A stretch of DNA of 20,817 nucleotides, taken from a virus. The translations under genes were made by a program, and so were the position numbers. Position 1 is the first letter of the stretch. Each line of letters begins with the position of its first letter. Location: positions 1 through 20,817 of IMG/VR virus record IMGVR_UViG_3300037852_000049, one strand, 5' to 3'. Positions 6,543-20,817 of this stretch are shown piece after piece. The notes beneath the pieces were generated by a model, which was not told the origin of the DNA, searched no databases, and saw only the letters and a program-made list of their open reading frames with translations.

Positions 6543-6679
6543 TTCAACCCCATCGCGCGCGCGCGGACAGCCTGGCGAAAGGCCTCCTGCACCTCGGGCC
6601 GTACAGGCCGGCGGCGCTTCATCTTCTTGCTGGGCACCCCCAGCTCGCGCAGGAGACGACGGCGCTCGGAGCGGGTCAT
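6539..6679 (-). CDS. 46-residue basic protein
   Basis: ATG at 6679 shares a base with the stop of the fibre gene (TGATG), and the stop overlaps the adaptor start (GTGA). This interlocking makes it a real gene despite its size. The sequence is strongly basic (MTRSERRRLLRELG, then KKMKRRRPVRPEVQEAFRQA) and probably all helical. No family is recognised. A highly charged peptide between head and neck genes could bind DNA or a structural partner, but function is unknown. Confidence 0.72.
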   Translation of the reverse strand: MTRSERRRLLRELGVPSKKMKRRRPVRPEVQEAFRQAVRARAMGLK

Positions 6680-8289
6680 CAGACGGTCTCGGACACGGCC
6701 AACTGGGTCGCGATGGCGGTTGTGGTGCCTGCCCATTTGAGGTACCAGCCGGCGGGCAGCCTCACGGCGTAAACGTCGCCCAGGGTGGCCACAGAGCTGG
6801 CCTTGATGACGTTGGCTACCCCTGAGGTCGGGCCGATGGCCAAGGTTGTTGCTGTGCCTGCCGTCGTCACGTTTAGGTAGACCATGTAGACCTTGGTGGT
6901 GTCCGACAATTGAGCTGCTGCGCCATTGGCAAAGGTCGGCACCAGTACGGCGGCACCCGCGTAGTCGGTATGGCCGCTGGTGCTGGAAGTGCCGGCCCAA
7001 TGCGAATAGTCGAAAAAGGCGACGCCGTTTGTGTAGACGTCGTAGTTGGTGGTGTTGGTGACACCGAAGGCAAGCCCGGCGAAATAGCACCCTGGCGTCA
7101 GCGTGAAGTTGATGCCTGCTGCCGAGATGTCGATATGAGGCGAGCCGCTGGTGCCCTTTGAGTTGGAGGTGAAGCGGGCCGACACCGACACATTCGCCGA
7201 GGCGGTGTCCACGATGAGGCCCTGGGCGGTGTTCTGGTCGAAGCTGGACTCGCCGTTTATCGTCTGCTGAGAAATGCTGATCTTGCCGCCCACTTGGTTC
7301 AGGTAATTATCCATTGCGTGGATGCGGGTCATCGATCCAAGCAACTCGAAACCGTAGCTCGTGTTGAAGCCGAAGGTGGGGTGGTACCACACGCTGTCGG
7401 AGCCAGTGATAACAGCCCCGATCGTGTTGGAGTTGAACACGCAATGATAGGTGGTCAAACTGCCTCGATTGGCACCGTAGACGATGCCTGGCCCCGCCGA
7501 ATTGTTGAGCACCCACACGTCGAAAAGTTCGCCCCAATCGGTGGTGAAGCTCCCGAGTGTGGAGAACACGATCCCACCTGCGGTGTAGGGGTGGGTCGAC
7601 CCGTTGGTGCAGTTGACGGTGAAGCCCTGCAACTTGATCCCGCCGAGGGCTGTGATGTTCAGCATCGACGTGGCGACGGTACCGACCGCCACTTGCAGCG
7701 TCGTCTGCCGCGACCCCTCGCCGGTCAGGGTGCAGCCGCCGCTCAGGTTGAGCTGGGTTATGTAGAAGGTGCCCGCGGCGAGATGGATGGGATAGCCGGC
7801 CGTGAGAGCAACTTGGATCGCAGCGGTGTCGGTGACACCGGTCGTGTCCCCTGATGGGCCGAGGTAACTGAGCGGTGCGCCGTTGACCGTCGGCAGGCCG
7901 GTAAAGGCGGGGGCGGCGAGGGGGGCGGCTCCCAGATTAGTCCGTGCGGCAGCGGCAGTGCGCGCTCCGGTACCGCCGTTAGCGATGGAAGTAATGACCC
8001 CAGAGCTATAGGTGGTCGTCAGGATAGGGGTTACCCCAGCCGAGAGGTTGACGATCTGAGGGGTGGCGGCAGATGTGCCGTACTCCACTCCACCGATCTG
8101 CATGGAGACGCCGTAGACGCCAGCGGCAGCCAGATAAAAGGTGACGGGGGTCGTGATCGCCACTGAGGCGGGAGTAGCGACCGTCGCGGCTTCGTCGTAG
8201 TACATCTGGACCGCAGCTTGAGAACTCGCGCCGACAACCGAGACCGTGACCGTCTGTCCTGAAGGGGGGTTCACCTGGAAGCCGATCAT
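6679..8289 (-). CDS. Beta-helix fibre / spike or decoration protein
   Basis: 536 residues, ATG at 8289 preceded by AGGAGCGGCC. An N-terminal beta domain (residues 1-100) is followed by IANGGTGARTAAAARTNLGA (102-121), a motif common in phage tail fibres near collar or trimer regions. Residues about 144-430 look like a right-handed beta-helix of the pectate-lyase superfamily: GDTTGVTDTAAIQVAL, then HLAAGTFYIT, CTLTGEG and repeated short strands with Asn/Gly/Ser turns. A C-terminal beta domain (440-536) follows. Such proteins bind or cleave surface polysaccharides. No catalytic residues can be assigned. It lies between capsid and neck genes rather than after the tape measure, so a head fibre is as possible as a tail spike. 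Confidence 0.78.
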   Translation of the reverse strand: MIGFQVNPPSGQTVTVSVVGASSQAAVQMYYDEAATVATPASVAITTPVTFYLAAAGVYGVSMQIGGVEYGTSAATPQIVNLSAGVTPILTTTYSSGVITSIANGGTGARTAAAARTNLGAAPLAAPAFTGLPTVNGAPLSYLGPSGDTTGVTDTAAIQVALTAGYPIHLAAGTFYITQLNLSGGCTLTGEGSRQTTLQVAVGTVATSMLNITALGGIKLQGFTVNCTNGSTHPYTAGGIVFSTLGSFTTDWGELFDVWVLNNSAGPGIVYGANRGSLTTYHCVFNSNTIGAVITGSDSVWYHPTFGFNTSYGFELLGSMTRIHAMDNYLNQVGGKISISQQTINGESSFDQNTAQGLIVDTASANVSVSARFTSNSKGTSGSPHIDISAAGINFTLTPGCYFAGLAFGVTNTTNYDVYTNGVAFFDYSHWAGTSSTSGHTDYAGAAVLVPTFANGAAAQLSDTTKVYMVYLNVTTAGTATTLAIGPTSGVANVIKASSVATLGDVYAVRLPAGWYLKWAGTTTAIATQLAVSETV

Positions 8290-8297
8290 GGCCGCTC

Positions 8298-8789
8298 CTA
8301 GTGCTCTGTGGCCCCGCAGTCACACAGTCGCCTCTCGGGACGGTAGTGGTGGTGGGGGACCGGGGGTTCGTGGATGTGCGGGGAGTAACCGAGCTTGGTA
8401 AGAGCGGGGAGGATCTCGGAGTCGAGGCGCTTCCAGTCTCGTACAGGGAGTTTGGCCATCAGGTCGGGGTGAGCGGCTAACAGTTCGGTGGAGAACCGAG
8501 TACAACCGAGGGAGCCGCGGAGGAGGGCTCCCCCGGCACCTGGGAACGGCCATATGCACCAGGGTTCAGGACAAGCCTCCGTCTCTGGGATGACCGTGGC
8601 GTGGACCTCGATGTCTTGCTCGATTACCAGAAAGCCCCCGCCCTCTTCCCAGAGCTGGGCAAGGAAGAGGTAGTAGGCGTCCCACGCTTTGCCGAGGTCC
8701 ACTAAGTCAGCGTCAGGGGCGTGTTCCTTGAGCGCCGCGAGGGTGAGGGGGTGGAGCAGGCCCTCAACGTAGCAGCAGACGACCCGCAT
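8298..8789 (-). CDS. Glycosyltransferase-like protein, copy A
   Basis: 163 residues from ATG at 8789, overlapping the upstream stop by one base (TGATG). The order is an N-terminal strand (MRVVCCYVEG), helices to residue 50, the acidic strand FLVIEQDIEVH, CPEPWCIWPFPGAGGALL, LGCTRFSTELL, DWKRLDSEILPAL, a His-rich segment PHIHEPPVPHHH, and a C-terminal CDCG. An acidic 'EQDI' following a hydrophobic strand, plus 'LGCTRFS' and late histidines, resembles GT-A-type transferases with a nucleotide-sugar/metal site, and similar phage proteins are commonly called glycosyltransferases. It is short for that fold, so the call is tentative. A clear paralogue lies at 9059-9562. Confidence 0.6.
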   Translation of the reverse strand: MRVVCCYVEGLLHPLTLAALKEHAPDADLVDLGKAWDAYYLFLAQLWEEGGGFLVIEQDIEVHATVIPETEACPEPWCIWPFPGAGGALLRGSLGCTRFSTELLAAHPDLMAKLPVRDWKRLDSEILPALTKLGYSPHIHEPPVPHHHYRPERRLCDCGATEH

Positions 8790-9058: not shown

Positions 9059-9562
9059 TCATGGTAGCAATTCCCCACAGTCACAGCGCCTCTGTAGAAG
9101 CCACGGCCTGACATGGTGGTGGTTCACCGGAGGGCTGTGCCAGTGAGGGGCACCGGCAGCTTCGCGGAGGGCGGGGAGCATGTCGGCGTCCAACCTTCGC
9201 CAGTCGTGGGAGGGGAGGTCGGTCATCAAGGTAGGGGCCTTGGCTAGCAGTTCGGCGGAGAACTTCGTACAACCGAGGGAGTAGTAGGTGAGGGGGTCCC
9301 CGTAAGCACCTGCCGGGCCGGGGTACGGATAAGCGCACCAGGCTTCGGGGCAGGCTTCCAGGTGTGGCACCACGTCCGCGTGGACCTCGATGTCCTGTTC
9401 AATTACGAGGAACCCCTCGCCAGCTTCCCATAAGTCGGCGAGCACCTTGTAGTAGGCGTCGTCGACCCGGCTGAGTTCGATGAGCTCGGCGGTGGGGGCG
9501 TAGAGGGCGACCGACTCCCGTGTCTTGGGGTGGAGGTCGACGAAGGGTACGACTACCCGCGT
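9059..9562 (-). CDS. Glycosyltransferase-like protein, copy B, without a canonical start codon
   Basis: The frame ending at 9059 encodes a paralogue of the 8298-8789 protein along its whole length: RVVVPFVDLHPKT at the N-terminus, then DDAYYKVLADLWEAGEGFL, VIEQDIEVHADV, LGCTKFSAELL, DWRRLDADMLPALR, HSPPVNHHHVRP and a final RRCDCGELLP. Homology reaches codon 9559-9557 (Arg), so the position matching copy A's ATG is an ACG at 9562-9560. No ATG, GTG or TTG exists further upstream in frame. The first GTG (9445) falls inside the conserved region and would remove about 39 residues. AAAGG lies 7 bases before the ACG. The gene may start at ACG, be reached by reinitiation from the overlapping upstream gene (stop 9553-9555), or be a decaying copy. 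The body is intact, with no internal stop. Confidence 0.6.
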   Translation of the reverse strand, partial: TRVVVPFVDLHPKTRESVALYAPTAELIELSRVDDAYYKVLADLWEAGEGFLVIEQDIEVHADVVPHLEACPEAWCAYPYPGPAGAYGDPLTYYSLGCTKFSAELLAKAPTLMTDLPSHDWRRLDADMLPALREAAGAPHWHSPPVNHHHVRPWLLQRRCDCGELLP

Positions 9563-9846
9563 GCGCCGGCCTTTGAGAGCTTCGGTGGCCTCGCGGGCTC
9601 GATCTCGACGTCGGCGTAGAAGGGGTTGTCACCTTCGTGCCAACCGGGACGCGAGAGAAGGAACTGGGCGGTCTCATTGTCGACCTCGAAAGTGCCGTCG
9701 GGGCGCAGTTCGTACTTCTTGCCACCGCGCTCGATCGTCTCGACGGAGGACGCTTTCATAACCATCTCGCGGCGCATTACTTGGCCGAGGTCGGGGTCCA
9801 GTACAAACCGATTGTGAGGCTTTTCCTCCACATGGTAAATCTGCAT
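9553..9846 (-). CDS. Unknown 97-residue protein after the capsid/HNH genes
   Basis: ATG at 9846 is preferred over an in-frame upstream start at 9876 because it is preceded by the conserved leader AACGAAAGGGAACGCA, identical for 13 bases to the leader at 3382-3394. The protein begins MQIYHVEEKPHNRFVLDPDL, continues with GGKKYELRPDGTFEVDNETA and QFLLSRPGWHEGDNPFY, and ends with a Lys/Arg/Pro-rich tail. The 'FEV...A-FLL-RPGWHEG-NPF' segment is of a type often found in small proteins beside phage capsid genes. A capsid-associated or connector role is likely from position but cannot be shown. The end overlaps the following paralogue by 10 bases. Confidence 0.78.
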   Translation of the reverse strand: MQIYHVEEKPHNRFVLDPDLGQVMRREMVMKASSVETIERGGKKYELRPDGTFEVDNETAQFLLSRPGWHEGDNPFYADVEIEPARPPKLSKAGARG

Positions 9847-10732: not shown

Positions 10733-12232
10733 TCAGGCGATGTTCGCGGCAACCGCCTGAGCGACAGGAGCCCTGTTGACCAGCACCTCATTCGACCTGA
10801 TCTCGAAGTCGTAACGGGGGCCACCACCCAGAGTGTTCTGGGACATCGACGCAGAGTAGTCGAACCTCATGGTATCGTATTGCGCCCTGACCTCGAAGAC
10901 GCTCCCGATATTGCTCCCCGGGAACGGCACCCGATCGCACCTTGCGAAGATCGTGCCCGGTGCCATCCTCGGATGGATCTCGATCGCCACGGGAACACCA
11001 CCGGCTGCCCGGTTGATGTACCGCCCGATGTAGCCACCACCAGCCAAGTTCGTCCTTGCGTCCGCATCCGTGGGAGGCAGGAATGTGGTGGCCGAGCTTG
11101 ACGCCAAGATGGCCTTGGAGATTTCGTCGCCCTGGAGCGAGTTCATCATGTAGGCCGTGGGGCTGAGCTGGACGCTCGCCCAGATCTTGTCGTTGATCGT
11201 GTCCAAGATGTCGATGCCACCACCAGACAGGTTCGGGACGTTCCCGCCGTTGTCGATGAAGATCGCACCCGTGGCTGTTCCTGTACCAGGAGTAACAGGG
11301 CCGAGCGTGCCGTAGTCGCCCAACGTCGAGGCGATGATGCCGTTGTACCAGTTGGCCGCGTTGTAGCTCGTGTCGGCCGTAGGAGCCGTTGACGGGGGAG
11401 TGGCCAGGGTGGTGAACAGGGGCAGGGTGGTCGGCGGGGCTTGAGCAGCCGTATACACGTTGGTGAAGGTCGCTGAGGCGACGGTCGTGGTCGTGTAGTA
11501 GTACTGCGCTGCTGACGTTCCGACGTACCAGTCGTAAGCCACCGCACCCTTGACGGCAGGGATGGAGGCCGTGACGGTGTTGGTGGAGGTCGTCGTACCG
11601 GCTGTCGTGTGCCCTACCAGGGCCGGCGAGTTGCCGTTGCTCACGAAGTAGTTCGCACCCGACTTGGCCGCGACCGCCACGTAGACGACGGTGCCAGTGG
11701 TGATCGATCCGCCGGTCGTCGCTGTAGTGAAGGTCAACGGACCCGCGGGAGTACCCAGCGCCCAGTTCTGCCCGTTGATGATGTAGCAGTCCTGAGCGAT
11801 GAACAGTTGGTTCAACGTCTGGAGCTCGGCGACCGCCAGAGCATCGGCGTAGTTGCGGGCGAACGCCACAGCGTCGAGGGTGACGCGGTTGGCCTTGGCC
11901 AGAACCTTGTAAGTCGCGAAGCAGTCCTGCTCGTCGAGGATCGTCAGCGAGCCTGCGTAGTCCACGCCTACCGCGGCGTCGGTCTGTTGGCTGTTGACGT
12001 TGAGCAGCGAGCGCCAGGTGGCGGTCTGGGAGCCCTCACCAGCGATGACACGCGGGAAGGCGGAAGTGTTATTACGGGCCGGGACGTTGACCGGGACAAG
12101 GCTGACTAGCCCTGAGAGGTCTACACCCTGGATGCCCGTAGAGGCGTAGAGGCCCGTCGTTTGGGCCTTCTTGAGGATCTCAAGCGTGTCCTTGGTCAGG
12201 AGCTCGAGGTCTTGAGTCATACCCGCAGGCAT
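10733..12232 (-). CDS. Major capsid protein (HK97 fold) with Ig/FnIII-like insertion
   Basis: 499 residues, ATG at 12232 with AAGGAG five bases upstream. The N-terminal arm (TQDLELLTKDTLEILKKAQ) and middle region (PARNNTSAFPRVIAGEGS, then ATYKVLAKANRVTLDAVAFA) are followed by helices. The fold resumes after the insertion with DILDTINDKIWASVQLSPTA, a spine-like helix, and a C-terminal domain (GGVPVAIEIHPRMAPGTIFA, RYDFEIRSNEVLVNRAPVAQ). Residues about 160-290 (11363-11755) form a Thr/Ser/Ala/Tyr-rich beta domain with YVAVAAKSGANYFVSNG, AVAYDWYVGTS and ATFTNVYTAAQAPP, of FnIII/Ig character. It would project from the shell and could bind host or glycan, or be a glycosylation target. The protein follows scaffold and protease genes, as expected. 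Confidence 0.92.
   Translation of the reverse strand: MPAGMTQDLELLTKDTLEILKKAQTTGLYASTGIQGVDLSGLVSLVPVNVPARNNTSAFPRVIAGEGSQTATWRSLLNVNSQQTDAAVGVDYAGSLTILDEQDCFATYKVLAKANRVTLDAVAFARNYADALAVAELQTLNQLFIAQDCYIINGQNWALGTPAGPLTFTTATTGGSITTGTVVYVAVAAKSGANYFVSNGNSPALVGHTTAGTTTSTNTVTASIPAVKGAVAYDWYVGTSAAQYYYTTTTVASATFTNVYTAAQAPPTTLPLFTTLATPPSTAPTADTSYNAANWYNGIIASTLGDYGTLGPVTPGTGTATGAIFIDNGGNVPNLSGGGIDILDTINDKIWASVQLSPTAYMMNSLQGDEISKAILASSSATTFLPPTDADARTNLAGGGYIGRYINRAAGGVPVAIEIHPRMAPGTIFARCDRVPFPGSNIGSVFEVRAQYDTMRFDYSASMSQNTLGGGPRYDFEIRSNEVLVNRAPVAQAVAANIA
11363..11755 (-). other. Region encoding Thr/Ser-rich Ig/FnIII-like insertion of the capsid protein
   Basis: Capsid residues 160-290. The segment has alternating hydrophobic strands, runs of Thr (TTAGTTTSTNT, YYYTTTTVASATFTN) and a Pro/Thr linker (PPTTLPLFTTLATPPSTAP) before the capsid fold resumes at about residue 290. 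The composition differs sharply from the flanking capsid sequence. Boundaries are approximate. Confidence 0.65.
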
Positions 12233-12299: not shown

Positions 12300-12929
12300 T
12301 CAGATGACGTTGTTGAGACGAGCGTTGCGAAGCCGGATACGAGTGGCTTCCTGCTGGAGGTCGGCGTACCGCTGGGCGTTGTCCCACCCCGGCTTGCCTC
12401 CCATCTGCTCGATCTCTTTCAGGACAGGCTCGAGTTCGGCATCCTCTGCACTCTTGGCCACGCTCTCGCTGAGTCGCCCTTCGGCGGCCGGGAAGGCCCC
12501 GCTAGCGGCTGCTCCGAGGAACGGGCCCCCAGAACGGGGACGCTTCGCCATCTTCTCAAGCAACCCTTTGACCTCGCCGAGTTCTGCGGCCTGGGCCTCC
12601 ACGAGCTGCTTGATCGCCTTGTCTTTCTTACCGCTCTTTTCTTTGTTGACGTACTGGCTGTCCACGGGACCCCCAACTGAGTCCACGTTGTTGGCCTCGT
12701 TCTTGCCCTTGACGCCAGCGTTCTCTTGCTCGGCCGTGATGTCCCCGCCGTTGTTGGCGTTCTTCTCGGCCTGCATGAAGGGTGGTTTCTTGCCCTTCAT
12801 CTTCGCCTTCATCTTGGCCTTCTCGGCCTTGCGCTCCGCCTTGAGAGCGGCCTTGACAGCTACGACGGCAGCAGCGCCAGAGGACTCGTTGATGAAGCTA
12901 GCGAGATCCTCCTTGGTGACGGTGGTCAT
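12300..12929 (-). CDS. Nested in-frame scaffold protein (internal start)
   Basis: Met385 of the long protein is preceded by GAGGAGGAGAACATT, one of the strongest ribosome-binding sequences in the window, which would yield a 209-residue protein starting MTTVTKEDLASFINESSG. It contains the Ala/Lys/Glu-rich coiled-coil and C-terminal helix, the parts expected of a scaffold. In-frame nested scaffold genes are established in lambda (C/Nu3). The purine run here could partly reflect the coded Glu-Glu-Glu, so the internal start is probable but not proven. Confidence 0.6.
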   Translation of the reverse strand: MTTVTKEDLASFINESSGAAAVVAVKAALKAERKAEKAKMKAKMKGKKPPFMQAEKNANNGGDITAEQENAGVKGKNEANNVDSVGGPVDSQYVNKEKSGKKDKAIKQLVEAQAAELGEVKGLLEKMAKRPRSGGPFLGAAASGAFPAAEGRLSESVAKSAEDAELEPVLKEIEQMGGKPGWDNAQRYADLQQEATRIRLRNARLNNVI

Positions 12930-14081
12930 AATGTTCTCCTCCTCGGAGGTTCGGGCGCCGTTGCCGGCGGGTGTGTCGGCCCCACCAAGTTTGGTGAGGA
13001 GGTTCTCGGCCTTGAGCATCGCGGCGTCTATGCCAACGCTGTCCAAGGCTTGGTCAATGAGAGCGTTCTTCAGGGTGGCGCAGACATCTTCTAGGTGCGC
13101 CCACACCTGAGCGTCAAGGGGATCGGTCATCCCATCGGGGTCTGCCTTCTGTGCCGCCATCGCCTCTTTGAGGGCCATGTAGGCGCAGACGATGCGGTCG
13201 AGGACCGTGGTGTTCGCAGTCTCTACCGAAGGCTCCTGGGGCGTCTGAGAGGCCCCTCCGACAGCGTTGTCGAGGCTCATCCAGTTCTGCTTGGCCACGA
13301 CCTCGAAGTCCCACGACTTACCTACGTCGCCGGGTATGGCTTCTTGGCGCGGACGCTTCTCAAAGGGTGGGTTGTCGGTGACCTTGGCCTCGTCAGGGAT
13401 GATGTAGGGCGTCTGCCCGCCGACGCTGTAGGAGGGGCTCGTCTCGGGGCGAACGTGGCCCGCGGTGACGGGACCTGCAAGACCTGAGCGGCCGGTGTCA
13501 AGGTGGCCCTTCTCCTTGGGCGTCTGGACGGACTCGGCGGGGACACCGGGGGACTTCTGGAGCAGTTCCAGTTCCTTGGCGACGTCGATGTCAGGGAACT
13601 CGCTACGGACCTTGGCCTTGACGCGCTTCTGCTCAGCGGGAGAGGCGTTGTGAAGGAGCCTGAGAGCAGCGACGGCATGTTTCCGATCCGTAACGGGGTA
13701 GGAACCGGACCCTGGTGCCTTCTCGGGAATCGCGAAGTTCCCCTTGGGGATCGCTCGCCGGTCGGCAGCACTGAGCCGACGTTTGAGCAACTCGCCGTGA
13801 AGCTCCCCGAACCTGTCCTTGCAGACCTCGCACTCGTCCCACCCGCAAAAGCCCGCGCTCTCAGCCTTAGTCAAGAGCGCCTCGATCTCATCGGCCTCCG
13901 CTTTGGTCATCTCCGCTTCCTGGGCGTCAGCCTCGGGGGAGTCGACGTGGGGAGAGTTCGGGTCGGCCTCTACGTCGGTGCTCTTGAGCAGGAGCCAAGG
14001 CGTGCCATTGGCAGGGCTCCCCACTCCGCTGACCTTCTCGGCGCCCAGCTCATCGAGCTCGGTGATATCAACAGTTGACAT
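12300..14081 (-). CDS. Capsid assembly/scaffold-like protein (long form)
   Basis: 593 residues, ATG at 14081 with GAGGAG 6 bases upstream and one base after the protease stop. Residues 1-33 (ITELDELGAEKVSGVGSPAN then GTPWLLLK) resemble the segment that ends XkdF-type protease domains in related phages. A Cys cluster (Cys79, 84, 87) follows. Residues 101-163 look like a DUF6582-type domain (RRAIPKGNFAIPEK, then YPVTDRKHAVAALRLLHNAS and AEQKRVKAKVRSEFP). The middle is low-complexity, and the last 209 residues are a charged Lys/Glu/Ala coiled-coil region typical of scaffolds, with VEAQAAELGEVKGLLEKMAK and a C-terminal helix DLQQEATRIRLRNARLN. The latter could contact the capsid. It guides shell assembly and is probably cleaved by the adjacent protease. 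Confidence 0.8.
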   Translation of the reverse strand: MSTVDITELDELGAEKVSGVGSPANGTPWLLLKSTDVEADPNSPHVDSPEADAQEAEMTKAEADEIEALLTKAESAGFCGWDECEVCKDRFGELHGELLKRRLSAADRRAIPKGNFAIPEKAPGSGSYPVTDRKHAVAALRLLHNASPAEQKRVKAKVRSEFPDIDVAKELELLQKSPGVPAESVQTPKEKGHLDTGRSGLAGPVTAGHVRPETSPSYSVGGQTPYIIPDEAKVTDNPPFEKRPRQEAIPGDVGKSWDFEVVAKQNWMSLDNAVGGASQTPQEPSVETANTTVLDRIVCAYMALKEAMAAQKADPDGMTDPLDAQVWAHLEDVCATLKNALIDQALDSVGIDAAMLKAENLLTKLGGADTPAGNGARTSEEENIMTTVTKEDLASFINESSGAAAVVAVKAALKAERKAEKAKMKAKMKGKKPPFMQAEKNANNGGDITAEQENAGVKGKNEANNVDSVGGPVDSQYVNKEKSGKKDKAIKQLVEAQAAELGEVKGLLEKMAKRPRSGGPFLGAAASGAFPAAEGRLSESVAKSAEDAELEPVLKEIEQMGGKPGWDNAQRYADLQQEATRIRLRNARLNNVI

Positions 14082-14082
14082 A

Positions 14083-14622
14083 TCAGCTCCTCAATAGGGC
14101 TAGGCGTTCGGGGCTAGGCTTGGAGCGCCGGGCAGTACCTTCGGGGGACCAGCCGTTGACTAGACCGGCTTTCACGAGTGCCCAGCCGAACTCATCCCAA
14201 ACACACGCGAGGCACCAGTCCCCCGCCTTGACGACGTAGGGCTTCCCATCAACGGGGCTGTCTTGCACCCAGTCGGGCCCACGGTAGATGTAACTCTCAA
14301 CAACGGTCCCATGACCGCCAGCAGCTTCATCGCTGCGGTGGAACAGGTTGATGTCGCGGTGCTTGGCCATCCAGTTCCATGCGGTCTTTTCAAGCACCTC
14401 GGGCGAAACAAAGTCTCTCTTCCCGTCCGCGGCACGACCGATATCTGCCTTCATGGCGGGATAAGCAACGCCGAGAGTGTAACGGCGCTCATCGGAGGCT
14501 TTGATGACCCGACAAGCAGCGAGGTTCGTCTGGACTGCCTCGGCCTTAGCGACAGGCGACTCGCAATGGGCAAGGGTCGCCACGAGGCTCTCAGCGGCTT
14601 GGTAGACACAGTTCACGCACAC
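14083..14622 (-). CDS. Capsid maturation protease, XkdF / peptidase S78-2 type
   Basis: 179 residues from GTG at 14622, chosen because GGAAGGGAGGT ends 4 bases upstream and the GTG lies 2 bases after the preceding stop. An in-frame ATG at 14643 would overlap the previous gene. The fold signature matches phage putative serine protease XkdF (Peptidase_S78_2): RYTLGVAYPAMKAD, then DFVSPEVLEKTAWNWM, then INLFHRS (His95), then TVVESYIYRG (Ser110) and GDWCLACVWDEFGWALVKAG with GLVNGWSPEGTARR. His95 and Ser110 are the likely catalytic pair. It cleaves scaffold and possibly capsid arms during prohead maturation. In related phages the protease continues into the segment that here opens the next gene. 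Confidence 0.85.
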   Translation of the reverse strand: MCVNCVYQAAESLVATLAHCESPVAKAEAVQTNLAACRVIKASDERRYTLGVAYPAMKADIGRAADGKRDFVSPEVLEKTAWNWMAKHRDINLFHRSDEAAGGHGTVVESYIYRGPDWVQDSPVDGKPYVVKAGDWCLACVWDEFGWALVKAGLVNGWSPEGTARRSKPSPERLALLRS

Positions 14623-14624
14623 GG

Positions 14625-15488
14625 CTACCTCCCTTCCACACACATTCGGACACCCTCAACGAGCGATACCTTCGGCTCGTAGAAAGTCCTCAACAGGGTC
14701 GTATCGGCAAAGCGGTGGTCCGGTCCTACCGAGCGGCCGAGCACCTTGATCTCCGGTTTGTAGCCCACCGTGGTCGCTGCCAAGGCTGCGAGCTCAGTCA
14801 TCTTGGTCGGGACACCTGAGCCGACGTTCACCGGACCAGGGATGCCCTTGTCCACCATCGTCAGGCACGCGTCCACCACATCATCAATGTGGATGAAGTC
14901 CCGCTCGACATCACTCCACACCGTCAGAGGATCTTCGCGAGCCTTGGCCCGCTTCAGGATCGCAGGGAAGGGGTAGTCCAACGACTGATCTGCACCATAC
15001 CCAGAGAAGGGGCGGGCGACGTAGACCTTCCCTCCTACCCTCTTGAGGTCTCGGCACTGCCGCTCCCCGGCCATCTTTATGAACCCATACGCGGCATCGG
15101 GGCAGTGGAACATATTCGGGTGCAGGTCCGCTTCCCTGAACGGCCCGCTGGTGTCTGTCGGGTAGGCCGCCGAGGACGAGAAGTACAAGAGGGGCGTCTC
15201 CGTCTCGGCGCACCAGGCGATGGCCTGTTGGTCAAGAGAGAGGTCTTCGTAAACAGCCAGCGGGTTGTCGTCGCGCTCCTGCCGGCTACCGATGATCGCC
15301 GCGCAGTGGACCAGAAGGTCGTAGCCCCCAGCCACGGCGAAGATGTCGCGACAGTCAGCTTGGATCGATGTCTCAAAGTCGCTGGACCGGATGTCAACGC
15401 CTGTGACATCCCACCCGTCCTTGACCAGCCGCTCGGCTATGTGTCGGCCTACGAACCCCGCGTGCCCCGAAACTAATGCTCGCGCCAC
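14625..15488 (-). CDS. NAD(P)-dependent nucleotide-sugar epimerase/dehydratase (extended SDR)
   Basis: 287 residues. GTG at 15488 is preferred: it has AAGGGCGAT just upstream and puts the Rossmann motif at the N-terminus. An ATG at 15512 would add 8 residues. SGHAGFVG (residues 7-14) is the GxxGxxG dinucleotide site, D32 ends strand 2, HCAA follows strand 4, YFSSSAAYP holds the catalytic Ser, and YGFIK (134-138) is the YxxxK pair. RDFIHIDDVVDA and 'GPVNVGSG' are typical of sugar-nucleotide SDRs such as UDP-glucose epimerases and GDP-sugar reductases. It would supply an activated sugar for the neighbouring transferases. The exact substrate cannot be read. It overlaps the upstream glycosyltransferase end by 16 bases and directly precedes the capsid protease gene. 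Confidence 0.9.
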   Translation of the reverse strand: MARALVSGHAGFVGRHIAERLVKDGWDVTGVDIRSSDFETSIQADCRDIFAVAGGYDLLVHCAAIIGSRQERDDNPLAVYEDLSLDQQAIAWCAETETPLLYFSSSAAYPTDTSGPFREADLHPNMFHCPDAAYGFIKMAGERQCRDLKRVGGKVYVARPFSGYGADQSLDYPFPAILKRAKAREDPLTVWSDVERDFIHIDDVVDACLTMVDKGIPGPVNVGSGVPTKMTELAALAATTVGYKPEIKVLGRSVGPDHRFADTTLLRTFYEPKVSLVEGVRMCVEGR

Positions 15489-16117
15489 ATCGCCCTTACG
15501 TGCGGCATCCAAGTCGAAGCCCCCGAGGCTCTCGCGAAGTAGTGAGCATCTTCTTCGGAAGGCTCTGAGCGGCGGTACCAGGGCATGTGGCGCACCTCAT
15601 AGGGGAACCCGGAGCGGACTGCCACGAGGCACCGCGGGGAGCTGGGGCGGTACAGGGCGAAGGTTGTGTCGACCGGAGCCTCGAAACAGTCCCCGAGCCA
15701 TCGGTTCTCACCATGTAGCTGCCACTCCCAGCGCAGGTATATGTGCGGTTCAACGTCAAGGACGTGGAGCCCTAGACCTGCTTTGGGAACGTCGTGGTTG
15801 TCCAGCAGCCAGCGGAGATGATCTACCGCGTCCAAAGGACATTCCTCGTGGGGCACTACGTCGGGGTCGGTGTAGATGAACCACTCATCGGGGACGTCCC
15901 ACTCCCACAGACAATGCGGGCCGAGGTTCCTGCCGAAGTAGATGACCTTGTGCGGCGTCTTCTCCAGGTACTCAAGCAAGGGGGGCCAGGTCGAGTCGTT
16001 GTCCAAGAAGATGATGCGGTCGTGTCCCGCCTTCTCAAGCCACTCCACGAGGGCCTTGAGATCTGTAAGCCGGTCACGGCAGATGATGTGGACGGGGACG
16101 GTTAGGGTTGAGGGCAT
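15473..16117 (-). CDS. GT-A-like glycosyltransferase
   Basis: 214 residues from ATG at 16117, whose start codon overlaps that of the divergent GNAT gene (CATG). VPVHIICRDRLTDLKALVEW resembles a GT2 opening strand and helix. RIIFLDNDSTWPPLLEYL gives the nucleotide-sugar acidic site (DNDST, residues 39-43), and WFIYTDPDVVP (79-89) gives the DxD-type metal site. RHMPWYRR and HYFARASGA follow near the C-terminus, as in sugar transferases with a late His. It lacks membrane helices and is probably cytosolic. No ribosome-binding site lies at ideal spacing (GAGAGG is 15 bases upstream). Acceptor and sugar are unknown. Confidence 0.78.
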   Translation of the reverse strand: MPSTLTVPVHIICRDRLTDLKALVEWLEKAGHDRIIFLDNDSTWPPLLEYLEKTPHKVIYFGRNLGPHCLWEWDVPDEWFIYTDPDVVPHEECPLDAVDHLRWLLDNHDVPKAGLGLHVLDVEPHIYLRWEWQLHGENRWLGDCFEAPVDTTFALYRPSSPRCLVAVRSGFPYEVRHMPWYRRSEPSEEDAHYFARASGASTWMPHVRAMWREH

Positions 16118-16523
16118 GATTGATCTGTATGTCCTCTCAGATCTTCCAGCGCTGCTCCAAGTCGAACCGTTGGCTGACCATGAGCGTTGGCTCTTGCCGT
16201 ACCTGCGGGAAGACCCAGCACGAGCCCTGGTGTGTAGGGTCGATGATGAGGCCGTTGCCTACGTCGTCGGCTCAGCCAATTCACCAGAGGCACCCCCTGC
16301 GGTGCGGGAGCGTTGGCCGGTTCACATCCACTGTCAAGTCCGAGAGGACCACCGTGACCACGGGATTGGGACCGCCCTCGTCTTTGCATTCATCACGACA
16401 TTCGGGCCCTGCCACGCTGCCGTAGCTAATGGCAACCTAGGAGCCATGAGGTTCTGGCCGCGCTTGCTCCCCATAGTGGCCGACGCAACCTCAGACACAA
16501 CGTGGTTCGCCACCAACGGTTGA
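16116..16523 (+). CDS. GNAT-family N-acetyltransferase on the opposite strand
   Basis: 135 residues, the only plausible plus-strand gene in the window. Motif A is clear: HIHCQVREDHRDHGIGTALV, with the acetyl-CoA loop R80-x-x-G83-x-G85. It is followed by a helix, AAVANGNLGAMRFWPRLLPI (an 'N--A--FW---GF'-like motif B), and a C-terminal strand. The N-terminus (LADHERWLLPYLREDPARAL then VCRVDDEAVAYVVG) fits the usual GNAT opening. ATG at 16116 overlaps the opposite gene's ATG (CATG), and its stop lies 7 bases from the convergent stop at 16531. GAGGG lies immediately before the start, at very short spacing. It may acetylate an amino sugar made by the neighbouring genes, but no substrate can be assigned. 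The complementary frames are Arg/Ser-rich and not protein-like. Confidence 0.75.
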   Translation: MIDLYVLSDLPALLQVEPLADHERWLLPYLREDPARALVCRVDDEAVAYVVGSANSPEAPPAVRERWPVHIHCQVREDHRDHGIGTALVFAFITTFGPCHAAVANGNLGAMRFWPRLLPIVADATSDTTWFATNG

Positions 16524-16530
16524 ACGGCAC

Positions 16531-17163
16531 TCACATCCAGAGCGGATGGCGGGAGAAGAACAGGTTCACGTCGGCCTGCAAGTGCTTGTCCCCGAGCGCG
16601 TACACCTCGTCAAAGGGAGCCTTCCCGTTGTCGTGATGCATGTGCTCGACGACGGAGTGCTCGCAGTAGATGAACCTCCCACGGTGCTCCGCTGTCTGAC
16701 GTAGTTCGGTGTCGCACCAGTTGTGGTGGTAACCGGGGTGGATCACAGGACCGGAGCGGTCCATCGTTCCCCCGTAGACGTCGACGTACTCCCGAGAGAT
16801 GAGCGACAGGGTGCCGTAGGGGTTGTTGAGGTCGTTCACTGAGACAACGCCAACGCCTTCGACCTTCTCCATGCAGTCGAAGGCCTTCTCTAGCCACTCA
16901 GGATGGAACACCACATCGTCTGCGCCGAGGAAGATGTAGGGCTCGGTGCTGACCTTGAACAGGGCGTTGATCCGAACCGGCCAGGAACCTCCGTCATCAG
17001 GGAAGCACTTCTGCCCTTCCAGAGCCTTCTCGCAGTCGCTCTCGCGGGTACAGGCCCAGTAAACGGAGTGCTCCGACGGGGTGGTCGCCTCGATGTTCCT
17101 GATGAGCGCCGGGATCAGGTGGGCCCGCATCGTGGGGATCAAGATGGCGACCGGACCTGGCAT
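16531..17163 (-). CDS. GT2-like glycosyltransferase
   Basis: 210 residues, ATG at 17163 directly after the upstream stop (TAAATG), with GGAGA upstream. VAILIPTMRAHLIPALIRNI is the first strand and helix of a GT-A fold. YIFLGADDVVFHPEWLEKA (76-94) carries the ADD metal site. GVVSVNDLNNPYGTL and ISREYVDVYGG follow, then HPGYHHNWCDTEL and VEHMHHDNGKAP, with acidic and His residues expected for the acceptor side. It is soluble, with no membrane segment, and belongs to the glycan operon. The short length (usual GT2 catalytic domain about 220-250 residues) suggests a minimal catalytic domain. Confidence 0.82.
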   Translation of the reverse strand: MPGPVAILIPTMRAHLIPALIRNIEATTPSEHSVYWACTRESDCEKALEGQKCFPDDGGSWPVRINALFKVSTEPYIFLGADDVVFHPEWLEKAFDCMEKVEGVGVVSVNDLNNPYGTLSLISREYVDVYGGTMDRSGPVIHPGYHHNWCDTELRQTAEHRGRFIYCEHSVVEHMHHDNGKAPFDEVYALGDKHLQADVNLFFSRHPLWM

Positions 17164-17784
17164 TTACGTCTCCGTGGATAGGCGGGACCAAGGCCCGACA
17201 CCGTAACGCCAGAGCTCTTCGGGTATGCACAGGAACCGAGCGCCGGCCTTAGCCATGAGGTAGAACACCGTCTGGTCGTCGTAGCCGCTTTGGAAGCCCG
17301 CGAAGTGGCCGCCTTGGAACAGCCCAGCTCCCTCCCATTCGGTGGGCCAGCCACCGAAGGACTTGAGGATCTCTGTACGCATCAGGACCGCCGAGCCATC
17401 TATCCAGTTGGAACTCTCAAGAGTTGAGAGTACGCGCGAGTGGCCCCAGTCGTTGCAGTTCACCCGAGGTCGGCTGCCGTTGGCGTCCCACGCGTAGATC
17501 ACATCGCCCTCGTCCAAGTGGGGCAGCATGGCCTCGACGTAGTGCGGGAGCAACTGGTCGTCGTCGGCGAGGCGCATCGTGAACTCGGTGCGAACCGCAG
17601 ACAGGAGGTAGGACTGCTGGATGGCGCAGTGCTGAGGGCCAGGCATCCCCGGCGTGATGGTCTGGGCCATGACGAGATGTGCTTCGACCGGAACGCTCTG
17701 GCTATAGACGCTCACAAGGGTCGCACCGAGGAGTTCCTCACGACCGGGGATGGAGGCCGTTACCACGCTAATCGGAGCCCGCAT
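17164..17784 (-). CDS. GT2-like glycosyltransferase
   Basis: 206 residues, ATG at 17784 overlapping the previous stop by one base (TAATG). ISVVTASIPGREELLGATLV plus SVYSQ is the classic GT2 opening. FTMRLADDDQLLPHYVEAML (69-88) contains the DDD metal-binding triad, and DGSAVLMRTEILKSFGGWP is the usual 'SxlmrrelleeiGGf' element. GYDDQTVFYLMAKAGARFL is the late acidic motif, in which Asp or Glu is the likely catalytic base. The fold looks complete, and the enzyme is probably inverting and cytosolic. It differs in sequence from the adjacent transferase at 16531, so the two probably make different linkages. Confidence 0.85.
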   Translation of the reverse strand: MRAPISVVTASIPGREELLGATLVSVYSQSVPVEAHLVMAQTITPGMPGPQHCAIQQSYLLSAVRTEFTMRLADDDQLLPHYVEAMLPHLDEGDVIYAWDANGSRPRVNCNDWGHSRVLSTLESSNWIDGSAVLMRTEILKSFGGWPTEWEGAGLFQGGHFAGFQSGYDDQTVFYLMAKAGARFLCIPEELWRYGVGPWSRLSTET

Positions 17785-18095
17785 TAGGCAGGCTGGAGCG
17801 TCTTCAGAAGTCGTGTCAGGGTGACCTCGTAGTCGACGGTGCGGATTAGGGTCTCACCGATGACCACGGGGCAGGAGATGATGATGCTGCGTCGATTGTT
17901 CCACGGCTCAAAGGATTGGAGCAGCAACGTGGCCATGCTCATAACAAGGTAGAGGCCATCAGCAGCTGGGGTTGGGTCGACGCCCAGTTCCATCCAATCC
18001 GACCAGGCACCCGTGGGTTGGGGCGTCGGCAAGTTCTCGGTGTCCCGGCTTCGAAAGGCGACGTCGGTCGGCACATCCATGGCGAAGATTTTCAC
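17784..18095 (-). CDS. Unknown 103-residue protein in the glycan cluster
   Basis: GTG at 18095 has an excellent GGAGGT 5 bases upstream and follows the previous stop by 2 bases; the stop overlaps the next start (TAATG). Sequence opens MKIFAMDVPTDVAFRSRDTE, has TGAWSDWMELG, DGLYLVMSMATLLLQSF and RSIIISCPVVIGETLIRTVD, and ends with a helix VTLTRLLKTLQPA. No family is recognised. It is soluble and mixed alpha/beta, with no evident zinc site. The strong ribosome-binding site and tight packing show that it is expressed with the sugar genes. Confidence 0.72.
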   Translation of the reverse strand: MKIFAMDVPTDVAFRSRDTENLPTPQPTGAWSDWMELGVDPTPAADGLYLVMSMATLLLQSFEPWNNRRSIIISCPVVIGETLIRTVDYEVTLTRLLKTLQPA

Positions 18096-18097
18096 GT

Positions 18098-18910
18098 CTA
18101 CCTCCGATAGCTCAGGATCGTGTCGTCAAGTTCAGTGAGGTCAAACACTGGATGCCACCCGAGCTGGTCCCAGCCCATGCCAAATGCCTTCAGACGGGTG
18201 TGGGGGCGCTCCCCCTCGCGCATCGGGTAGTGGACGACCTCCGAGGACGAGCCGGTCACTTTCAAGACGTACTTGGCGACCTCATTGACGGTCCACTCTC
18301 CCCCCGTGCCGGCGTCGAAGACCTCATCGCCGCCGAAGTCGAGAGCGGCCACTAACACCTTGGCAACCTCTGCTGCGGAGATAAGGTCCACCGTCTGTGT
18401 GCCGTCCCCCCAAATGGTGATCGGCTCCCCGGCCCATGCTCTTGAGGCGAAGGTGGGGATGATCTTCTGAGGGTGTCCTGGGCCGTGCTTCTGGCCGATG
18501 CCGAAGGCGTTGAAGGCGCAGACGTGGCTCACAGGGACTTTGTAGGACTCGTGCCACGCCGTAGCGAGGATGCGGGCGCACCTCTTAGTCGCCTGGTACA
18601 CGTTGGCCCATACCTCGGGCATCGTGATACCGACATAGCCTGCTCCGACGTGCCGGCAGAAGTCGAGGACGCGCTGGGTGCCCTTGATGTTCACGTCAAC
18701 GGCTTGGTCGAAACCGCTGAAGAGTTCCGCGGTGCCCAGTCTTCCGGCGAGGTGGATAACGGCATCTACGGGCCCGACGTCCATGAGGTCAACCGAGCTG
18801 CGGACATCGTTGGGCCGGTCAAAGATGATGGGTTCGTGTCCTTGGTCTTTGAGGGCCTTGACCACATAGGTCCCTAGGAACCCCCCGCCCCCTGTCGTGA
18901 GAACAATCAT
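18098..18910 (-). CDS. NAD(P)-dependent epimerase/dehydratase (extended SDR)
   Basis: 270 residues from ATG at 18910, overlapping the upstream stop as ATGA; the open frame upstream to 19132 is a shadow of that gene. TTGGGGFLGTYVVKALKDQG holds the GxxGxxG site (G7, G10, G13), VIHLAG lies after strand 4, and VYQATK (104-109) is the catalytic YxxxK. ITIWGDGTQTVDLISAAEVA and EVFDAGTGGEWTVNEVAKYV are the usual extended-SDR segments for sugar-nucleotide enzymes. The second active-site residue is Thr or Ser in the region GITMPEVW rather than the common 'SS', which is slightly unusual. At 270 residues it is a compact member (usual length about 300-340). It probably makes an activated sugar for the flanking transferases. 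Confidence 0.88.
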   Translation of the reverse strand: MIVLTTGGGGFLGTYVVKALKDQGHEPIIFDRPNDVRSSVDLMDVGPVDAVIHLAGRLGTAELFSGFDQAVDVNIKGTQRVLDFCRHVGAGYVGITMPEVWANVYQATKRCARILATAWHESYKVPVSHVCAFNAFGIGQKHGPGHPQKIIPTFASRAWAGEPITIWGDGTQTVDLISAAEVAKVLVAALDFGGDEVFDAGTGGEWTVNEVAKYVLKVTGSSSEVVHYPMREGERPHTRLKAFGMGWDQLGWHPVFDLTELDDTILSYRR

Positions 18911-19575
18911 GCGACCAAAGCGTGGGGGTTGTGGGGCAGCAGTTGGAACCACGGGCAGTCGATCGCCGTCCACTGTGGAGGTAGAGGGTCGGGGACTACC
19001 CCGGTCTTCCACACCGCGTAGGGGAAGCTGATCTGGTCCTGGTAGGTCCAGCGGTGGTTCTCCGACAGCCACAACTCCATGAGGCGTCGGACTTCGGGGT
19101 TGCTGGTCTTGCGGGCTATGACGCCGGTACACCAGAGGCCGAAGTGCTCAGGGAAGCCCTCGGAGGCGTAGTGGGCGACCTGCTGGGGGATCTGTGTGCC
19201 CAGGTACTTGGGCTGCCACATGGAGGCGTCGCGCTCGGCCCCGATGTCGTCGCGGTGGGTGTGCCGCCACATCGCTATCCCTGTGGGCCCGATGCAGTTC
19301 AGGGACTCAAGGAGGCTCTCCGAGGTCACCTGGAAGTCCGCGTCGAGCCAGATGTTGTACTCGTACTCGGGGAGGTAGATGTGCGGGAGGCACTTGTACG
19401 CCTTCGCCACTAACCGCGGGTGTTCGCTGTAGGGCGGGATCGGGCGAACGTCCCAGCCGTCGTGGTCCTCGGGTTCGTCCATGAAGGCTACGAAGTCCAC
19501 TCCTGGGATGTCGACGTGGGGCTTGAGGGAGTCGTACCGGGCGGTGATGGCTGTACAGACCACTACGGGGTTCAT
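18907..19575 (-). CDS. DUF616-type glycosyltransferase
   Basis: 222 residues, ATG at 19575 overlapping the previous stop (ATGA). The opening VVVCTAITARYDSLKPHVDI and FVAFMDEPEDHDGWDVRP, then HPRLVAKAYKCLPHIYLPEY, YNIWLDADFQVTS (74-86) and WTYQDQISFPYAVWK (176-190), are the family's hallmark order. WLDAD is the DxD-type site, and the DQ-x-SF-YA motif is diagnostic. DUF616 members are found in bacteria and plants as putative glycosyltransferases. The fold is GT-A-like and the protein is probably cytosolic. Substrate is unknown. It belongs to the same overlapping gene string as the GT2-type transferase before it and the SDR after it. Confidence 0.85.
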   Translation of the reverse strand: MNPVVVCTAITARYDSLKPHVDIPGVDFVAFMDEPEDHDGWDVRPIPPYSEHPRLVAKAYKCLPHIYLPEYEYNIWLDADFQVTSESLLESLNCIGPTGIAMWRHTHRDDIGAERDASMWQPKYLGTQIPQQVAHYASEGFPEHFGLWCTGVIARKTSNPEVRRLMELWLSENHRWTYQDQISFPYAVWKTGVVPDPLPPQWTAIDCPWFQLLPHNPHALVA

Positions 19576-20279
19576 GGAACCGGCACGCGGAGGGGGATGG
19601 GGATTACCGCGGTCTCAACAGCACACAAGGCGTCCCACTCGGCAACGAGGTCTTCGTCGGTGAGATTGAGCCAGGGAGGAGGGCCCTGGACAGCAAAGAG
19701 GGGCCAGTACGCGTCCAGCCCTCTGACCTTGCGGATGAACTGGTCAAAGCTCCGGTACTGGTAGTGGGCGACCTCCAGCGCAGGCTCCAATGGCCCCTCG
19801 GGTTCAGGGAGAGTGACATCATGGTTGCCCGCTACAAGCCGTGCCTCAGGAGACGCCCGGAACACGACCTTGGCGCGCTGGGGCAGGATGGCGCGGCGCT
19901 TAAAGTCGAGGTACCTCCACGCGGGGCAGTACATCTTCTGCACCCCGCCAGGCACTAGGGCCAGTTCTGCGGCCACTGTGCGCCCGCTGGGGGCATAGAA
20001 GAACTCATCCGCGTCAAAAGGGACCACCCACTCTGCGCCGACCACGTAGACCGATTGAGCGAGCGCGGTCATCTTCTCAGGTTGGTAGAACACCGGGGTC
20101 TCATCGCGCAGCAGGACGATCGGCAGTTCAAGCGCTAGCTCTTGGAGCAGTTCCCACGTCCCGTCCGTACTCATGTGGTCCTCTACCCACAGTTGGTCGA
20201 CCCCTTCCGCGACGGTGTGAAGCAGCACCCGTTCAAGGATGTCGATCTCGTCCTTGACGTGGCAGATGCCGGCGATCAT
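19572..20279 (-). CDS. GT2-family (Glyco_tranf_2_4-type) glycosyltransferase
   Basis: 235 residues, ATG at 20279 overlapping the previous stop (ATGA). MIAGICHVKDEIDILERVLL is the opening strand with the KDE motif. VDQLWVEDHMSTDGTWELLQ (27-46) is the 'vdxxxvxDnxSxDGT' nucleotide-binding element. VPFDADEFF (86-94) is the DADEF metal-site motif typical of this subgroup. It continues with MYCPAWRYLDFKRRAILPQR, VAGNHDVTLPEPEG and a late helix ALEVAHYQYRSFDQFIRKV. The His residues in GNHD and AHYQYRS are usual in this family. The catalytic domain appears complete. It is the first clear sugar gene of the cluster in transcription order. Confidence 0.88.
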   Translation of the reverse strand: MIAGICHVKDEIDILERVLLHTVAEGVDQLWVEDHMSTDGTWELLQELALELPIVLLRDETPVFYQPEKMTALAQSVYVVGAEWVVPFDADEFFYAPSGRTVAAELALVPGGVQKMYCPAWRYLDFKRRAILPQRAKVVFRASPEARLVAGNHDVTLPEPEGPLEPALEVAHYQYRSFDQFIRKVRGLDAYWPLFAVQGPPPWLNLTDEDLVAEWDALCAVETAVIPIPLRVPVP

Positions 20280-20479
20280 TCGATGACTCGGACGTGGAAA
20301 TGGACCCGATACTCGGTGCCATCTACGATGAGCGAGCCGTACCCGCCGTTGTCGTCATAACGCCAGTGGACATCAGAGCCGAGGCCAGACGCGAGCAGAT
20401 TGCCGATCGCCTGAGCTACCTTCCCCGTCGTACCAGCCCAAGGCGGGCGACGCTTGGCCATCTCTACGGAGCCTTTCAC
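20276..20479 (-). CDS. Small unknown protein at the head of the glycan cluster
   Basis: 67 residues from GTG at 20479, overlapping the upstream stop as GTGA and with GGAAGG 9 bases upstream. ATG at 20461 would give 61 residues. The stop overlaps the glycosyltransferase start (ATGA). The sequence has a basic N-terminus (MAKRRPPWAGTTGKVAQAIG), an amphipathic helix, and a beta hairpin (GGYGSLIVDGTEYRVHFHVR). No family is recognised. Translation coupled on both sides supports it as a real gene. Confidence 0.68.
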   Translation of the reverse strand: MKGSVEMAKRRPPWAGTTGKVAQAIGNLLASGLGSDVHWRYDDNGGYGSLIVDGTEYRVHFHVRVIE

Positions 20480-20817
20480 GGCAGCCAGCCTTCCATACGG
20501 CGCTCCCCGATGTGGTGGACGCGGGGAGGGTCGGTCGTTTGGCCGAGGTAGCCAAAGCGGTAGCCCTTCGCCAGACAGGAGGAGGTGACGTTCGGCTCAG
20601 TCCGGGGGGACGGATCGGCCAGGGCTACCGCTATGACATCTTTGGGGATCAGGCAGGGGTTGAAGGTGAAGATCAGGTCCGTGTCACAGAAGCCCTCGTG
20701 GTCCTCCCAACGGTCCAGTTCGACCGCCATGAGGTCACCTACCGCGAGTTCGACGGGGCCGTGGGGCTGGCGCTTGAGGGCTAGCTGGGCGAGGTAAGGG
20801 TTCTCCTCAAGGATCGC
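20476..20817 (-). CDS. Unknown protein, N-terminus outside window (partial)
   Basis: The frame is open from 20476 to the right edge, giving 113 residues with no start required inside. An internal ATG at 20730 exists, but the preceding 29 codons read as good protein (ENPYLAQLALKRQPHGPVEL), so the true start is probably off-window. It continues AVELDRWEDHEGFCDTDLIF, FNPCLIPKDVIAVALADPSP and RTEPNVTSSCLAKGYRFGYL, with four cysteines. No family is recognised. Standard gene order would put portal or terminase upstream, but nothing here identifies either. Confidence 0.65.
   Translation of the reverse strand, partial: AILEENPYLAQLALKRQPHGPVELAVGDLMAVELDRWEDHEGFCDTDLIFTFNPCLIPKDVIAVALADPSPRTEPNVTSSCLAKGYRFGYLGQTTDPPRVHHIGERRMEGWLP

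Follow-up and report, generated by a model that had tools for sequence, protein, structure and literature searches.

Described glycosylation systems and the locus analysed here

In cluster O mycobacteriophages, enzymes encoded between the portal and protease genes are reported to modify the capsid and the tail tube (Freeman 2023, as cited in PMC11600133 and PMC12363180). The capsid of Che8, a cluster F1 phage, bears a glycan (PMC11256854; PMC12363180), and Che8 gp110 is named together with Corndog gp38 as an essential capsid-glycosylation glycosyltransferase (GT; PMC12363180). The window analysed here, a viral contig of 20.8 kb (IMG/VR record IMGVR_UViG_3300037852_000049, positions 1 to 20,817), carries a set of glycan genes on its minus strand at 14625-20817, called the island in the following. 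In this soil bacterial virus, the island is probably a late-operon locus for virion glycosylation, whose acceptor is most likely the major capsid protein or a protein bound to the head. Because it holds the position of the cluster O enzymes but its GTs are not detectably related to Che8 sequences, it is best read as a separate, larger and modular assembly, which resembles the known system in working and position, is unrelated to it in sequence and has its own sugar-nucleotide enzymes.

The cluster O operon (Corndog type) is represented by Wildflower and Schuy. In Wildflower, the portal gene is followed by an O-methyltransferase gene, three GT genes and the protease gene; the last, protease-proximal GT is 47% identical to Che8 gp110 and has close counterparts, at about 99% identity, in Schuy, FoulBall and Idergollasper. 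The island shares with this operon its portal-to-protease position and the combination of several GTs with a gene for a sugar- or glycan-modifying enzyme, and this precedent (PMC11600133) weakens the rarity implied in a preliminary description of the window. However, the cluster O operon contains only three GTs and the O-methyltransferase and lacks the short-chain dehydrogenases/reductases (SDRs) and the TOD1 protein of the island, in which a Pfam search found no O-methyltransferase. The protease-proximal GT of cluster O belongs to the Che8 gp110 family, whereas the window GTs, compared with Che8 gp108-110, show no significant similarity to this Che8 gp110/Corndog gp38 family. Che8 gp108-110 also form a multi-GT set, but these genes occupy the right end of the genome and do not adjoin the capsid gene, and no SDR is annotated among Che8 gp101-112. 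For the glycosylation of its capsid, chlorovirus PBCV-1 encodes a soluble GT (A64R) as well, and PBCV-1 GT structures are the best match in the Protein Data Bank (PDB) for a GT-A model from the window (gene 8298, located after the capsid gene); PBCV-1, however, is a eukaryotic virus, and its GT resembles 8298 only in fold (TM about 0.5, 11% identity). Sonali and Mufasa8, both Arthrobacter phages, are the nearest isolates and have a related capsid, protease and gene order, but their portal gene leads to the protease gene without any GT, and neither this interval nor the one between capsid and adaptor holds a GT or SDR gene, while the island has both.

Gene content and layout of the island

Pfam, PHROG and AlphaFold2 (AF2)/Foldseek comparisons place five GT2/GT-A glycosyltransferases, one TOD1/MUCI70 transferase and two extended SDRs at 14625-20817. 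Together with the neighbouring head genes, the features are, in minus-strand order:

20476..20817, minus: C-terminal part of a further GT2, leaving the window at its end (orthologue L056:4191-4841, 94% identity over 113 aa)
20276..20479, minus: open reading frame for an unassigned small protein of 67 aa, overlapping each neighbour by 1-4 nt
19572..20279, minus: GT2 glycosyltransferase, DADEF motif (Pfam Glyco_tranf_2_4, 2e-13; orthologue 74% identical in amino acids, dN/dS 0.23)
18907..19575, minus: TOD1/MUCI70 (formerly DUF616) glycosyltransferase-like protein, LDAD motif (PF04765, 2.5e-13; dN/dS 0.32)
18098..18910, minus: extended SDR, nucleotide-sugar epimerase/dehydratase, start revised to 18910 (PF01370, 2.5e-28; phrog_540, 2.5e-40; dN/dS 0.085)
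17784..18095, minus: 103-aa protein without family, a single-gene insertion (no match in Pfam or PHROG; junction without it in relative G001)
17164..17784, minus: GT2-like glycosyltransferase, LADDDQ motif (phrog_14775, 6.6e-7; relatives with the same neighbours in L078, L092 and L096)
16531..17163, minus: GT2-like glycosyltransferase, GADD motif (phrog_14945, 1.7e-7; 53% identical relative in the capsid-adaptor island of L069)
16116..16523, plus: GNAT acetyltransferase, a single-gene insertion (PF00583, Acetyltransf_1, 2e-7; not in G001)
15473..16117, minus: GT-A-like glycosyltransferase, TDPD motif (PF00535, 0.0015, below cut-off; AF2 pLDDT 70, GT-A matches)
14625..15512, minus: extended SDR, by sequence nearest to GDP-L-fucose synthase (PF01370, 1.5e-35; PDB phmmer 5e-22; NF047922, 3e-23, below cut-off)
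14083..14643, minus: XkdF-type capsid maturation protease, Peptidase_S78_2 (Pfam, 8.6e-13)
12300..14081, minus: scaffold-like protein of 593 aa, by its position between protease and capsid (82% in the closest relative)
10733..12232, minus: major capsid protein (37% to the annotated one of Arthrobacter phage Mufasa8)
9059..9592, minus: member of a GT-A-like family, approximate start by start comparison (56% to 8298)
8298..8789, minus: member of the same GT-A-like glycosyltransferase family (AF2 pLDDT 93; best Foldseek match in the PDB is PBCV-1 GT 2p72, 6e-4)

The island reads straight into the genes for the protease, the scaffold-like protein and the major capsid protein, in agreement with the preliminary description of a glycan-biosynthesis island within the late head operon. 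Such placement with late structural genes is a mark of phage virion-glycosylation loci, although not universal, as the Che8 GTs at the genome end show. The upstream limit that had been set at 20279 has to be moved, since the GT2 gene at 20476-20817 extends the island; the full-length orthologue of this fragment matches PF00535 at 1.4e-12, and the fragment has a PHROG galactosyl transferase match at 0.01. Coupling by overlaps holds for most junctions, which measure -40 to +2 nt, the sole exception being a 413-nt interval that contains the plus-strand GNAT gene.

Translations and alignments reveal the motifs noted earlier, which are DxD-type for the GTs and YxxxK for the two SDRs. Several GT genes with DxD-type motifs are a further mark of virion-glycosylation loci, three of those in the island being assigned by sub-threshold or structural matches. 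Among the four GT-type genes first proposed, 19572 is established by Pfam, while 17164, 16531 and 15473 produce only sub-threshold Glycos_transf_2 matches in Pfam (E 0.0015-0.018). The first two of these are backed by PHROG glycosyltransferase families, and an AF2 model of 15473, of moderate quality, matches GT-A enzymes, with SunS as the best hit (1.5e-4). A phmmer search of 15473 against the PDB returned only chance nanobody matches, and 8298, 17164 and 15473 have no relative among 50,697 phage records. The assignments of 18907 as a DUF616 transferase and of 17784 as a protein without family stand, as do those of 18098 and 14625 as extended SDRs, apart from the start of 18098.

The presence of two SDRs suggests that a host nucleotide sugar is altered by phage enzymes. 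Neither reaches an NCBIfam equivalog cut-off (as a GDP-L-fucose synthase, SDR14625 scores 82.7 against the 500 bits required), so the sugar cannot be named, and the attempt to name it from the SDRs was dropped. Of the custom, possibly acetylated sugar that was initially envisaged, the enzymes that alter a nucleotide sugar are supported, while acetylation is weakened, because the GNAT gene lies on the opposite strand and is not conserved; the idea of an acetylated sugar was accordingly set aside. The acetyltransferase family itself is verified, but the gene diverges from the island, shares a CATG start with 15473 and is outside the coupled operon. At the junctions concerned, GNAT and 17784 each have the look of one gene cleanly inserted, and both are missing in the closest relative.

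Conservation and possible exchange of glycan genes in the capsid lineage

A capsid search provided 51 viral loci for comparison. The closest relative, with a 94% identical capsid, is represented by two assemblies of 65 (G001) and 51 kb from different metagenomes, which are possibly one virus. Its gene order is terminase, portal, MuF, a HAD-like gene, GT2, the island without GNAT and 17784, protease and capsid, so that in G001 the island occupies the interval from portal/MuF (plus the HAD-like gene) to the protease. The neighbourhood comparison called for in the preliminary description therefore shows that both order and content of the island recur. Pairwise dN/dS values to G001 are 0.085-0.32 for island genes and 0.08-0.21 for structural genes, and this purifying selection indicates that the island genes are maintained and not decaying. 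The recurrence in two assemblies, even if they are possibly one virus, together with low dN/dS, places the island beyond chance. Across the lineage, the interval from portal to protease retains the small HAD-like gene (L056:3802-4158; DxDGT, identified by eye) whether GTs are present or not, with counterparts in L004, L007, L009, L010, L018, L027, L033 and G003.

In the capsid lineage, GT, SDR and methyltransferase genes are found in two intervals. The portal-protease interval holds them in the window, G001, L027 and L048, and the capsid-adaptor interval in G001, G003, L023, L029, L044, L048 and others, with L069-L074 in a more distant branch; methyltransferases are present in the islands of L027, L048 and L069. 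Such genes are carried by 2/37 records with a complete portal-protease interval and by 14/41 with a complete capsid-adaptor interval, counts in which several records are near-duplicates and for which some of the queries had themselves been taken from the two intervals. This query bias does not affect a six-frame search with PF00535 and PF01370, in which, after its coordinates had been converted by hand against the gene maps, every match in G001, G003, L044, L048, L069, L070 and L078 fell within the head-flanking intervals, and G004, Sonali and several others gave no match. It is tentatively proposed that the two intervals are exchangeable "glyco-serotype" slots, which may swap whole oligosaccharide pathways, sugar-nucleotide-making enzymes included, so that related capsids would bear different multi-residue glycans.

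Parts of the island also recur outside this lineage. In L078, relatives of GT17164 (59%), TOD1 (41%) and SDR14625 (64%) are located between an unrelated HK97-type Phage_capsid gene (PF05065, 7e-29) and a head-tail connector gene. L092 and L096 contain GT17164, SDR18098 (64-65%), TOD1 and SDR14625 together; L092 additionally has UDP-GlcNAc 2-epimerase-like and PseB/FnlA-like genes, and L096 has a terminase-like gene upstream. With this recurrence in L078, L092 and L096, the glycan genes behave like a sugar cassette that can be transferred as a set. Matches to 17164 in L094/L095 were set aside as not clearly capsid-associated.

Proposed function and alternative explanations

The acceptor, the sugar and the order of transfer are what we infer in the following scheme. 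The two SDRs, together with host enzymes, would alter a nucleotide-activated sugar, and about six soluble GTs plus two small post-capsid GT-A proteins would assemble a short oligosaccharide in the cytoplasm, a length suggested by the number of GTs. While the head is being made, the oligosaccharide may then be attached to a structural protein, for which the major capsid protein and proteins bound to the head are the most likely candidates. A simple hydropathy scan detected no clear transmembrane segment in the island proteins, which look soluble. The pairing of a GtrA flippase with a membrane GT that marks Gtr-type serotype conversion is not seen, as no GtrA was found in eight records. DNA hypermodification calls for a base-hydroxylating or hydroxymethylating enzyme or a C5-methyltransferase in the genome, of which the window covers only a fragment. 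In G001, neither a DNA C5-methyltransferase (PF00145) nor a thymidylate-synthase-type gene (PF00303) was detected in searches with positive controls that gave a signal; a Tet_JBP search also found no match, but its control was equally silent and it carries no information. Taken together, soluble proteins and the lack of GtrA and of C5-methyltransferase or thymidylate-synthase homologues make cytoplasmic transfer onto a virion protein the most economical explanation.

Several observations weigh against virion glycosylation. The window GTs share no significant sequence similarity with Che8 gp108-110. Many phages with a related capsid have no detected island, which implies that it is not needed for assembly. 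A capsid neighbour of the module is not seen in the L092 or L096 contexts, and SDR14625 homologues (38-42%) adjoin DNA C5-methyltransferase and large GT4-like genes in L083-L085, a neighbourhood that looks like a DNA hypermodification cluster.

The alternative that survives best, although unlikely, keeps virion glycosylation but makes a receptor-binding tail or head fibre the acceptor, with the glycan serving attachment. Proteins that read as fibre-like from their sequences occur in the same two intervals of relatives, and the window itself encodes a pre-neck-appendage-like protein at 6679-8289 (minus), between the capsid and adaptor genes. This protein, however, was not found in the closest relative, in which the island is present, and the islands flank head genes, not tail genes. 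Less probable still is a remodelling of glycans in the envelope of the host (teichoic acid, capsule, arabinogalactan) that would prevent superinfection or change the host surface, possibly as a lysogen. Phage GTs can convert the host serotype (PMC4691112), and the tyrosine integrase of the closest relative makes lysogenic conversion conceivable, but the lack of GtrA and of clear transmembrane proteins, and the location within the late operon between portal and protease, argue against it. Glycosylation of phage DNA bases as an anti-restriction hypermodification is the most improbable explanation, because, although there are known phage GTs that act on DNA (PMC4691112; PMC12619734) and the L083-L085 neighbourhoods favour it, G001 yielded neither base-modification gene and a head-operon position is atypical for DNA modification.

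If the island glycosylates virions, the few cases from mycobacteriophages understate how widespread and elaborate this modification is among environmental viruses related to Arthrobacter phages, where it combines phage-encoded sugar synthesis with modular exchange, comparable to bacterial capsule loci.

The post-capsid GT-A family and neighbouring genes

Proteins 8298 and 9059 have no family match, but their earlier designation as GT-like holds at the level of fold. The AF2 model of 8298 resembles GT-A folds, its best PDB match being the chlorovirus GT 2p72, whose annotated target is the major capsid, and in BFVD it matches viral GTs with TM up to 0.69; nucleotidyltransferases also match, with weaker E-values. 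Across 16 homologues, E57 and D59 of the ExD motif of 8298 do not vary, nor do several Cys, His and Trp positions. The gene at 9059-9592 lacks ATG, GTG or TTG at the expected start, with ACG in the window and in L089 where G001 has TTG, and its reading frame stays open upstream, across the end of gene 9553; a non-canonical start, a frameshift fusion or decay are possible explanations. None of the isolated phages searched has a match to this small family, which would be a marker of such loci and a possible source of compact glycosylating enzymes.

Two scans of genome contigs with the capsid as query, intended to assign a host through prophages, found nothing. The central stretch of the capsid protein (10733-12232) is Thr-rich (24%). 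Heavy-island phages have more Thr in an approximately delimited insertion-domain stretch (Mann-Whitney p about 0.002-0.005, without correction and confounded by relatedness), but as one of several measures this was kept only as a lead to the acceptor. Directly after the capsid gene, a recombination endonuclease VII gene (PF02945; 9882-10691, minus) is common to several relatives.

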